Shown: piece by piece, positions 9,533 to 37,096 of the stretch
Position numbering within the stretch: the stretch's first letter is position 1
Layout: each line of letters opens with the position of its first letter
Assembly: GCA_028691445.1 (NCBI GenBank)
Contig: JAQUZH010000003.1
Span: 1 to 41,969 of the forward strand
DNA: 41,969 nt
Reading direction: 5' to 3'
Source of the DNA: Bacteroidales bacterium
GTDB taxonomy: Bacteria > Bacteroidota > Bacteroidia > Bacteroidales > JAQUTK01
Translations under genes and position numbers: made by a program
Notes under the pieces: model-generated
The model's database searches: none
Told to the model about the DNA's origin: nothing
Seen by the model: the letters and a program-made list of their open reading frames with translations, nothing else

Positions 9533-10111
9533 ATGACTAAAAGTATCAAAGGAACAGAGACGGAGAAGAATCTGATGTGCTCATTTGCCGGCGAATGTCA
9601 GGCACGTATGCGTTATACCTACTTTGCCAGTGCGGCTAAGAAAGAAGGATTCGAACAGATTGCTGCTATCTTTACAGAAACAGCCGATCAGGAAAAAGAA
9701 CACGCCAAACGGATGTTTAAGTTTTTAGAAGGAGGAACCACCGAGATTACAGCCTCTTTCCCATCGGGAGTCATTGGTCGTACGCTCGACAATCTTCAGG
9801 CAGCTGCTGCCGGTGAATTGGAAGAGTGGTCAGACTTGTACCCTGCTTTTGCAGAAACAGCCGAGAAAGAAGGATTTCCGGAGATTGCCATGATGTATCG
9901 CAAGATAGCTGTAGCAGAAAAAGGGCACGAACAACGTTACAACGCATTTGTAAGTAACATCGAAACTGCTTCTGTATTTGCCAAAGAAGATGAGGTCGTA
10001 TGGCAGTGCCGCAACTGTGGCTATTTCCATGTCGGAAAGAAAGCACCCGAGAAATGTCCCGCTTGCCTCCATCCGCAGGCTTATTTCGAAGTCAAAGCAG
10101 ACAATTATTAA
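9533..10111 (+). CDS. rbr: Rubrerythrin
   Basis: 192 aa, the usual length. The N-terminal ferritin-like four-helix domain (residues ~1-145) carries the diiron ligands in two E-x2-H-type helices: Glu21, EKEH at 54-57, then GELEEW near 94-99 and AEKGHEQ near 128-134. The C-terminal rubredoxin-like domain binds one iron through Cys159, Cys162, Cys175 and Cys178 (CRNC and CPAC). Rubrerythrin reduces hydrogen peroxide with electrons from NADH-dependent partners and protects anaerobes from oxidative stress in the cytoplasm. It is monocistronic, with its own promoter and a strong terminator. No peroxide-regulator site was recognised. Confidence 0.97.
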   Translation: MTKSIKGTETEKNLMCSFAGECQARMRYTYFASAAKKEGFEQIAAIFTETADQEKEHAKRMFKFLEGGTTEITASFPSGVIGRTLDNLQAAAAGELEEWSDLYPAFAETAEKEGFPEIAMMYRKIAVAEKGHEQRYNAFVSNIETASVFAKEDEVVWQCRNCGYFHVGKKAPEKCPACLHPQAYFEVKADNY

Positions 10112-10119
10112 TCCTAACT

Positions 10120-10157
10120 AGAAAGGCTCTCCCGCAAGGGGAGCCTTTCTGATTTTT
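10120..10157 (+). terminator. Terminator after rubrerythrin
   Basis: The stem AGAAAGGCTC (10120-10129) pairs with GAGCCTTTCT (10141-10150), with inner CCC/GGG pairs closing a GCAA tetraloop and one bulged T. A T-run (GATTTTTC) follows. Confidence 0.92.
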
Positions 10158-10244
10158 CACCCCCTTATCAGCATAACCTTTACTGATTTAGGTAGACACT
10201 TTTATGAACTTACACAGAAACAGGGGTTATATAAGGACAACTGA

Positions 10245-10403
10245 TTAAGGATCAGCTGATTTGTGCTCATTCCGGGCCATTTTTTTTTTTTTTGCTTTCA
10301 GAATCGCCGATACCATGATTTTAATGCACCAACTGCACCAAGCCACACCTCTCAGTATCCTGTAGGGCAGTTTGGTCTGTTTTGATTTTACTTGCTCGCT
10401 CAT
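10245..10403 (-). CDS. Putative small ORF, 52 aa, Lys-rich with 14-A tract
   Basis: It starts with ATG at 10401-10403, three codons after an in-frame TAG, and stops at 10245. It opens MSEQVKSKQTKLPYRILRG, has a Trp/Cys-rich stretch (GVAWCSWCIKIM), then ILKAKKKK encoded within the 14-A run, and ends MARNEHKSADP. The composition looks more like a peptide than noise, and the Trp/Cys stretch could be a short membrane-binding helix. I recognise no family. A one-base change in the A run would switch to a longer frame ending at 10202. It may be a real small gene, a decayed gene or chance. Confidence 0.3.
   Translation of the reverse strand: MSEQVKSKQTKLPYRILRGVAWCSWCIKIMVSAILKAKKKKMARNEHKSADP
10280..10293. 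repeat. 14-base T homopolymer
   Basis: Fourteen consecutive T on the + strand, read as A on the minus strand, lie inside the small minus-strand frame. Such tracts are prone to slippage in replication and transcription. Confidence 0.9.
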
Positions 10404-10409
10404 AAATTG

Positions 10410-10481
10410 CTACCAAAAATGCTTGCGATTGTTCCTTTTTGATCTAGTTTTTGCACCAAACGGCTTTAAAAGGAGGTGCAT
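10410..10481 (-). pseudogene. In-frame upstream segment ended by TAG
   Basis: ATG at 10479-10481 opens a 23-residue frame (MHLLLKPFGAKTRSKRNNRK, then HFW) that ends in TAG at 10410-10412. It is in the same frame as the 52-aa ORF, and only two codons separate the TAG from that ORF's ATG. The pair together could be one ~77-codon gene with a nonsense codon. This is a weak call. Confidence 0.2.
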
Positions 10482-10522
10482 AATTAACCTCAACGCTCGA
10501 TTTTGATTGTCCAAAATTCCTG

Positions 10523-10566
10523 AAAAGTTTTCCCATAGTTTTGCTCGAAACTATGGGAAAACTTTT
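10523..10566. repeat. Perfect 19-bp inverted repeat, 6-nt loop
   Basis: The left arm 10523-10541 (AAAAGTTTTCCCATAGTTT) is exactly complementary to 10548-10566, with loop TGCTCG. On the + strand it runs into TTTTTCC, so it could end a + transcript, but no gene lies upstream within 400 bp. It may be a stand-alone RNA hairpin or a mobile-repeat end. Confidence 0.85.
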
Positions 10567-10573
10567 TCCTTTC

Positions 10574-10617
10574 TTCCGTATATTTTTCCAAAGTTTTCCG
10601 TATATTTTTTCGGAAAA
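10574..10617. repeat. Tandem TTCCGTATATTTTT repeat with inverted repeat
   Basis: Two identical 14-mers start at 10574 and 10596, 22 bp apart. The second overlaps an inverted repeat, TTTTCCG (10594-10600) with CGGAAAA (10611-10617). It looks like a protein-binding or transcription-control region rather than coding DNA. Confidence 0.7.
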
Positions 10618-10690
10618 TACTTAAATCTTTTTATGATTATAAATCAAGCAGTTACAGCCATTGAAGAAAAGAAATAAGGAAGCCGCCTGA

Positions 10691-10762
10691 ATGACCAACT
10701 ACGACCACATACTCAGTCCCCGCCAAGTACCGCTCATCACGCAACACTTAGAGGAGATGTAA
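10691..10762 (+). other. Short open frame of 23 codons
   Basis: ATG at 10691, directly after a TGA, encodes MTNYDHILSPRQVPLITQHL plus EEM and stops at 10762. It lies 14 bp after another tiny frame (10633-10677, 14 codons). No family was recognised. It could be a gene remnant or chance. Confidence 0.2.
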
Positions 10763-10770
10763 AGCAGGAG

Positions 10771-10791
10771 ATTGTGGGTCAAGCCCGCAAT
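10771..10791. repeat. REP-like palindrome
   Basis: ATTGTGGG (10771-10778) pairs with CCCGCAAT (10784-10791) around TCAAG, with one G-T pair. The core GGGTCAAGCCCGCAATGACGG resembles palindromic elements scattered through intergenic DNA of many bacteria (from memory, not searched). Confidence 0.55.
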
Positions 10792-10803
10792 GACGGTGTA
10801 AAA

Positions 10804-10833
10804 GTCCTCGGATGTCCTCAATAGTCCTCACTG
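10804..10833. repeat. Three tandem 10-bp units beginning GTCCTC
   Basis: GTCCTCGGAT, GTCCTCAATA and GTCCTCACTG follow each other without gaps. The first six bases of each unit are identical, giving one copy per helical turn. Confidence 0.6.
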
Positions 10834-11026
10834 CGATTTTTCCATGTCGTAGTGCAGAGAATGTAATGAGAAGCTCTGATTGTAAAAGGGATAGCGTAAT
10901 GAATGTGTTCCTTTTTCGGGAGACTTCTTTTTCTTTCTACACGACGATCTCTTGAATGAAATAGCGAGTTTGTTTCAAATTATCGTAAAATGACCTCAAA
11001 AAGTCACATACTTGCAGGCGGAGTCG
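10834..11026. other. Rest of the gene-poor region, no gene seen
   Basis: I see no plausible coding frame with a start, no tRNA-like fold and no terminator here. Part of it belongs to the start-less minus-strand frame described separately. Confidence 0.5.
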
Positions 11027-11055
11027 TTGTTTTCTAAAAGATTTTCGTATTTTTG
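11027..11055 (+). promoter_or_regulatory. Promoter of the XRE-cupin/ligase/heparinase operon
   Basis: A perfect -7 box TATTTTTG (11048-11055) has TTG at 11027-11029, 18 bp upstream, matching the Bacteroidetes -33/-7 layout. The start codon is 71 bp downstream, leaving room for the dyad in the leader. Confidence 0.7.
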
Positions 11056-11064
11056 TGCCCGATT

Positions 11065-11087
11065 CGTTCTTGTTCTTTGCAAGAACG
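11065..11087. promoter_or_regulatory. Dyad in the operon leader, candidate operator
   Basis: GTTCTT occurs twice in tandem (11066-11071, 11072-11077) and its inverse AAGAAC at 11081-11086. This gives both an 8-bp arm dyad (CGTTCTTG/CAAGAACG, 7-nt spacer) and a 6-bp arm dyad with a 3-nt spacer. It begins 10 bp after the -7 box, where a bound repressor would block initiation. Binding by the XRE protein encoded next is inference; an RNA hairpin is the alternative. Confidence 0.55.
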
Positions 11088-11126
11088 TCTATGTCATCAA
11101 TATTTAAACTCTAAAGAATCGTTTGT

Positions 11127-11693
11127 ATGAATAACGTAGGAGAAAAAATTAAGTCTGTACGTGAGTTGCAAAAAATTACACGGGAAGAGGTAGCACAACG
11201 TAGTGGCTTGTCTGTAAAGCAAGTGGAAACTATCGAAGAGAATAATCTGCTTCCTTCACTCACCCCGCTTATCAAGATAGCCCGTGCGTTGGGTGTTCGT
11301 TTGGGAACTTTCCTGGATGATCAGGAAAACTTTGGTCCGGTGGTATGTCGTCAGGGCAATAGTCAGGAGACCATTCGTTTTACCAACAACACCGAGAATG
11401 AAAGCAAAAGTATGGGTTATCATTCGTTGGCTGCAACCAAGACAGATCGCCACATGGAGCCTTTTGTTATTCAGGTAGATCCAACGGGAGCTTCAGAGTT
11501 TAACGCTTCCTCTCACGAAGGCGAAGAATTTATTTATGTACTGGAAGGTAAGATTGAAGTGAACTATGGCAAAGACAGCTATACACTTGAGGCCGGAGAC
11601 AGTATCTATTATGATTCCATCGTAGCTCATCATGTACATGCAGCCGATAGTACTACCGCCCGTATCCTTGCTGTTGTTTACACGCCAATTTAA
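11127..11693 (+). CDS. XRE-family regulator with C-terminal cupin domain
   Basis: 188 aa. Residues ~5-62 form an XRE helix-turn-helix ([20 protein letters not shown], then [20 protein letters not shown]). Residues ~110-186 form a cupin_2 barrel with the metal-type His/Glu pattern ([18 protein letters not shown] and the second motif AHHVHA). This HTH-cupin family senses a small ligand in the barrel and represses or activates adjoining metabolic genes. It is first in an operon: the acyl-CoA ligase starts 11 bp after its stop. It lies behind its own promoter and a dyad that it may bind (inference). The ligand is unknown; an acid or acyl-CoA used by the ligase is the natural guess. Confidence 0.92.
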
Positions 11694-18283: not shown

Positions 18284-18327
18284 GAAAACAGCCACCAGAC
18301 ATTTCAGCTGAATGTCTGGTGGCTGTT
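18284..18327 (-). terminator. Terminator after the papain-like protein gene
   Basis: A perfect 17-bp stem (18287-18303 with 18311-18327) and 7-nt loop are followed on the minus strand by TTTTCTTATTTCC. It lies 30 bp past the stop and separates this gene from the next minus-strand operon. Confidence 0.92.
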
Positions 18328-28687: not shown

Positions 28688-28700
28688 GATCCGTATATAT

Positions 28701-28747
28701 AAAAAGAATAGCCGCGAAGATTATCTTCGCGGCTATTCTTTTTATGA
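28701..28747. terminator. Terminator with perfect 20-bp stem
   Basis: AAAAAGAATAGCCGCGAAGA (28701-28720) is exactly complementary to 28724-28743, with loop TTA. The A/T flanks make it usable on both strands, serving the convergent radical SAM gene too. Confidence 0.95.
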
Positions 28748-32101: not shown

Positions 32102-32145
32102 ACAAGAAGCGAGAATAATCTGCAGATTATTCTCGCTTCTTGTTT
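32102..32145. terminator. Perfect 42-bp palindrome acting as terminator
   Basis: Positions 32102-32143 read the same on both strands, 21 bases each way, with no free loop. It sits between the convergent DPP IV and methyltransferase genes, 17 bp and 6 bp from their stops, and serves both. Confidence 0.93.
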
Positions 32146-37056: not shown

Positions 37057-37096
37057 AAAGAGAGAGGAGATGGTCAAGGCCATCTCCTCTCTCTTT
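37057..37096. terminator. Bidirectional terminator, perfect 17-bp stem
   Basis: 37057-37073 is exactly complementary to 37080-37096, loop TCAAGG; purine-rich on one arm, pyrimidine-rich on the other. It lies between the stops of the convergent regulator and lipoprotein genes. Confidence 0.92.

Follow-up and report, generated by a model that had tools for sequence, protein, structure and literature searches.

A dispersed, probably MITE-like repeat with a conserved hairpin core in a gene-free kilobase of a Bacteroidales genome

Results

Organization of the interval

The window examined here is a 41,969-bp stretch of contig JAQUZH010000003.1 from a Bacteroidales bacterium (GCA_028691445.1). Its largest intergenic gap, 1015 bp long (10112-11126), separates a rubrerythrin gene (end at 10111) from an XRE-cupin gene (start at 11127). 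A first-pass annotation had described the other gaps as short and this one as repeat-rich and free of conventional genes. Both statements held, with the second-largest gaps in the window measuring ~340 bp and no ORF of 80 aa or longer found in the interval. We also recovered the annotated 14-T tract (10280-10293), which is the sole homopolymer of 10 nt or more within the window, a perfect 19-bp hairpin with a 6-nt loop (10523-10566), a REP-like palindrome (10766-10797) whose reverse strand reads HCGLDPQSP, and a 3 x 10-bp repeat in which the unit GTCCTC occurs three times with a period of exactly 10 bp (10804-10833). The 14-mers described as tandem are an identical pair but do not lie head-to-tail (10574 and 10596, 22 bp apart). 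The annotation had missed the remnant of a DUF4248 gene, an insertion sequence (IS) end, and the fact that the rightmost 158 bp belong to conserved sequence 5' of the neighbouring gene. The features are, from left to right:

10119-10151, plus strand: terminator-like hairpin behind the rubrerythrin gene, forming the left border of the interval (terminator scan; homology to the congener, genome G001, down to 10131)
10176-10201, plus strand: left end of an IS3-family element (AACCTTTACTGATTTAGGTAGACACT), with no matching right end in the window copy (match to the IS ends on contig C211)
10201-10224, plus strand: leader segment TTTATGAACTTACACAGAAACAGG common to other copies (exact or near-exact in eight other copies)
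10218-10508, plus strand: module A, including the 14-T tract at 10280-10293 (BLAST against the source genome and the congener)
10509-10617, plus strand: repeat core with the hairpin (10523-10566) and the 14-mers (10574-10587 and 10596-10609); 27 copies in the source genome and seven in the congener, stem nearly invariant
10618-10762, plus strand: DUF4248 remnant, in which a 134-nt deletion has brought the leader and gene start up against the gene end, with extra stops (alignment with the intact gene on contig C10 and seven other copies; tblastn)
10766-10797, minus strand: CGTC-tagged REP palindrome, the source of HCGLDPQSP (many copies in both genomes; class in PMC3733652)
10804-10833, plus strand: three 10-bp iterons, GTCCTC-N4 (sole occurrence in the genome; motif upstream of 16 of 45 DUF4248 genes)
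10834-10968, no strand assigned: unique 135-bp stretch that has no match elsewhere in the source genome, nor in the DNA preceding the XRE gene in the congener
10969-11126, plus strand: conserved sequence 5' of the XRE-cupin gene, carrying a -7 motif of Bacteroidales type, TATTTTTG (G001 alignment from 10969 into the gene, 89% identity)

Homology to G001 stops at 10131 on the rubrerythrin side and resumes at 10969. In G001 the rubrerythrin gene and the XRE gene each sit at the end of a separate contig, an arrangement that fits the presence of a repeat between them there too.

Copies and distribution of the repeat

The source genome is a 2.57-Mb draft metagenome-assembled genome (MAG) of 242 contigs that is 86% complete. 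BLAST of the interval against it gave 94 matches and identified the main repeat body of the interval (10176-10762) as one mosaic copy of a dispersed sequence. At least 27 copies of the hairpin core were found, with 75-89% identity over the longer matches, plus fragments and contig-end pieces; these counts are lower bounds, since the MAG is fragmented and copies at contig ends are cut, and misassembly may have occurred at repeats. The 27 hairpin copies are ~170-730 bp long, intergenic and non-coding. They lie mostly behind genes, the flanking genes being oriented -- in 11 cases, +- in seven, ++ in five and divergently in only one. A covariance model based on 26 copies (25 from the source genome and one from the congener) matched at least 26 places in the source genome, seven in G001 and, weakly, one place across 147 other genomes. 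In sum, the congener contains seven copies, and no convincing copy was seen in the 147 others. The exact hairpin pattern did not occur in GTDB contigs outside the source genome, and the repeat had no match in plasmids or phages. The suggestion of dispersed repeats in the first-pass annotation was thus correct, and its counter-proposal of simply decayed DNA, with neither other copies nor conservation, is contradicted on both counts. The repeat is apparently restricted to one Bacteroidales genus and undescribed so far.

The repeat body consists of two separable modules. Some copies of module B (10509-10762) lack module A (10218-10508), and the core of module A (10279-10415) stands alone at five places (L029-L033). 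Module B comprises the hairpin, the two spaced 14-mers (TTCCGTATATTTTT, at 10574 and 10596) and the DUF4248 stretch.

A shared deletion in the DUF4248 remnant

On contig C10 the same hairpin leader runs into an intact 85-aa DUF4248 gene (PF14053, E = 1e-23), the sole DUF4248 gene above the family cut-off in the source genome; the likely promoter on this contig sits downstream of the hairpin. With the intact gene as reference, an identical 134-nt deletion was present in all eight aligned copies, including the window copy, where the junction lies at about 10674/10675. A tblastn search with the intact protein recognised the remnant in the window at 10643-10756 (E = 5e-9). No open frame covers the DUF4248 domain in the window copy, which carries the deletion together with internal stops. 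As the same deletion occurs at many loci, it arose first, and the already broken gene was then multiplied as DNA. Hairpin copies in G001 have no DUF4248 tail, and the gene fragment was therefore probably captured in the lineage of the source genome. The repeat thus retains the leader, start and end of a DUF4248 gene (PF14053; an example of the family is PG_RS02100 of Porphyromonas gingivalis, PMC6231650), but the gene in the window has been destroyed by the common 134-nt deletion and copied as repeat DNA. No DUF4248 gene was confirmed in viral contigs.

These data bear on whether the interval could have arisen without any movement, as the relic of a resident DUF4248/HU-HIG regulatory module that decayed on the spot. 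The GTCC iterons, which are typical of DUF4248 control regions, do lie within 150 bp of the DUF4248 remnant, as such a relic would have them, but a single deletion derivative with its leader at many unrelated loci is impossible by independent decay. We regard this explanation for the interval as very unlikely. It is contradicted for 10509-10762 by the common deletion; for 10798-10968, decay in place is possible.

IS3-type ends and movement of the repeat

Contig C211 carries a 1444-bp IS3-family element with HTH_Tnp_1 and rve domains and the ends TGACTTTTACTGATTTGGGTAGACAC and GTGTCTACCTATATCAGTATAAGACA. Among the eight other contigs that match this element, an IS end is joined to a copy of the repeat in seven; the eighth (C150) has the left IS end alone. 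One copy (L020, contig C162) is 434 bp long and has both IS3-type ends, while several copies have the right end only, most of these breaking off exactly at AAGACA. Of the two ends, the window copy retains just the left one and is therefore probably immobile. In most copies one IS end or both are missing, and a different left end occurs in some, so IS3-mediated transfer may account for just part of the spread. Neither the two-ended copy L020 nor the C211 element itself showed a recognisable target-site duplication.

We also compared insertion sites with G001, which lacks the repeat at several homologous sites, the exception being the rpsO-tRNA locus, where the hairpin is present too. None of the homologous sites checked was a clean empty site, and G001 holds other DNA at them: three (L127, L130, L131) contain a different multi-arm palindrome family (e.g. 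TTTCAAAGCACGAAACGATTATTTCGTGCTTTGAAA) and a fourth contains a 1.6-kb insertion-like stretch. Movement of the repeat is well supported, and the IS3 transposase as the agent of this movement is only partly supported. The first-pass proposal of a remnant of a mobile or regulatory module agrees with the IS3-type ends of some copies and with the DUF4248 leader and broken gene.

The repeat resembles IS3-family insertion sequences in that several copies end exactly in the ends of the C211 element; it differs in having no transposase inside and, in the window copy, only one end. By description it can be likened to BrickBuilt, a MITE-like Bacteroidales element of P. gingivalis (Klein et al. 2015, PMC4596501; used in PMC5771137), as both are short, non-coding, dispersed, intergenic and of varying completeness, with internal direct repeats. 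However, it belongs to a different genus, and it has a perfect hairpin core, a captured and deleted DUF4248 gene, and ends that are IS3-type or absent.

The palindrome at 10766-10797 has the structure CGTC-ATTGCGGG-CTTGA-CCCACAAT (32 bp, tag on the minus strand) and many intergenic copies. CGTC-tagged REPs have been reported from Bacteroidetes as a class without a dedicated transposase (PMC3733652), and the palindrome bears the same tag and fits this class. Only this 32-bp piece qualifies, the main repeat being separate and far larger. The presence of a REP palindrome and the intergenic location of the repeats could suggest a REP system in which a tyrosine transposase (RAYT) mobilises the palindromes, but no RAYT gene (Y1_Tnp, PF01797) was found in the source genome (86% complete) or in G001 (99% complete). 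Together with the report of this tag class as lacking its own transposase and with the size of the main repeat, this makes the explanation exceedingly improbable, and within the two genomes searched RAYT mobilisation is refuted.

Sequence constraint on the hairpin

The window contains four other long perfect hairpins with stems of 17-22 bp (18287-18327, 28699-28745, 32102-32143 and 37057-37096), which are probably terminators, and a long stem alone is therefore unremarkable. The hairpin at 10523-10566 was examined for variation among 25 copies from the source genome. The mean minor-allele fraction was 0.9% for the stem and 29% for the loop; the 3' and 5' flanks gave 10% and 17%, respectively. 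Covariation analysis of the hairpin, which the first-pass annotation had put forward, revealed two compensated pairs between species: TTTTCTAATAG/CTATTAG replaces TTTTCCCATAG/CTATGGG in all seven G001 copies and in one copy from the source genome, a change of two base pairs that is compensated on both sides. Thirteen of the 19 stem pairs never vary, and therefore the primary sequence is kept as well as the pairing. The repeats are otherwise degenerate, and a near-invariant stem amid drifting flanks reveals that this one part is under constraint.

A structured RNA could account for some of these observations, with the hairpin transcribed as a small RNA, a terminator or an mRNA-stabilising 3' element of neighbouring genes. 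The fold is very stable (RNA folding z-score -6.8), the base-pair changes are compensated, the hairpin is scored by the terminator scan, and the copies lie mostly behind genes with only one divergent placement. On the other hand, no Rfam family reached its gathering score (best match 29.9 bits, 79 needed), the invariance of 13 of the 19 pairs shows that sequence and not pairing alone is kept, and the C10 hairpin lies upstream of the likely promoter. On balance we consider a structured RNA unlikely, and a source of small RNA, as the annotation had proposed, is possible but less likely than a site in DNA. Judged from the sequence, the near-invariant stem points to a protein-binding site in preference to an RNA structure, and the hairpin is probably a constrained, sequence-specific site that acts as DNA. 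Such a putative binding site would explain why the stem resists mutation while its neighbours drift.

Iterons and the control regions of DUF4248 genes

The spacers of the three iterons at 10804-10833 are unrelated in sequence. The pattern GTCC-N6-GTCC-N6-GTCC occurs only at 10804 in the source genome and was seen in none of 20,000 mononucleotide shuffles. In other genomes this triple was found upstream of 16 of 45 DUF4248 genes, always in one orientation, with no occurrence in the other 308 kb of surrounding DNA; two control patterns gave none. The 260 bp upstream of the 45 DUF4248 loci are rich in repeated or inverted 9-mers compared with shuffles (p = 8e-20) and with the remaining intergenic DNA at those loci (p = 9e-4). 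At 11 of the 16 iteron loci, genes of similar sequence lie divergently on the far side of the iterons, and the one divergent gene checked encodes an HU-HIG protein. The 16 loci belong to Bacteroidaceae (L151-L184) and have TGTCC iterons with a 10-bp period between DUF4248 and the divergent gene. No second DUF4248 start or HU gene lies beside the window iterons, which probably derive from a DUF4248-type control region. The phased repeats before DUF4248 genes suggest that a protein binds there and that this uncharacterised family has a role in regulation or replication; the available text of the open literature on DUF4248 makes no mention of such repeats.

At two loci (L135 in G001 and L139 in G012), DUF4248 lies near a Lin1244_N-like gene and a Toprim-DnaB primase-helicase gene, a replication-type neighbourhood. 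Assignment of DUF4248 as a DNA-binding protein by fold was rejected, as the AlphaFold model, of moderate confidence (pLDDT 81, pTM 0.64), had no PDB match better than E 0.9.

Origin of the interval

Taken together, these data make it likely that the interval consists of a mosaic repeat copy, belonging to a MITE-like and non-autonomous intergenic family of one genus, followed by the REP palindrome, the iterons and the promoter region of the neighbouring gene. A derivative of the leader and DUF4248 gene with the 134-nt deletion was amplified in the source species. An IS3-family transposase may have moved copies in trans via their IS3-type ends, and the window copy would no longer be able to move. 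The hairpin stem and the iterons are putative sites for a sequence-specific DNA-binding protein, which may have been inherited from a DUF4248 control region. As debris of a mobile element the repeat is of an ordinary kind, but the conservation of its core is unusually strong; it probably joins the known class of MITE-like dispersed repeats as a genus-restricted newcomer, the window copy being probably inactive. This accounts for the gene-free kilobase and puts a name to a repeat that an uncultured genus of Bacteroidales carries at dozens of positions between genes.

A broader and speculative proposal, to which we assign a low probability, is that DUF4248 genes in Bacteroidales, which are often divergent from HU-HIG genes and sometimes adjacent to a Lin1244/primase-helicase pair, come with arrays of iterons or palindromes that are specific to each lineage and function as operators or as origin-like sites. 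In the present genus such an array would have become a selfish dispersed repeat, with a sequence-specific protein still bound to the hairpin at dozens of locations.

The arms of module A were also considered as clean long terminal inverted repeats, which was rejected because the similarity is weak (73% over 82 bp in one G001 copy). Degenerate module A flanks the hairpin on both sides, in opposite orientation, in three copies from the source genome (L016, L024, L027) and in three from G001 (L202, L203, L206), as if an older form of the repeat had been A - hairpin - inverted A.
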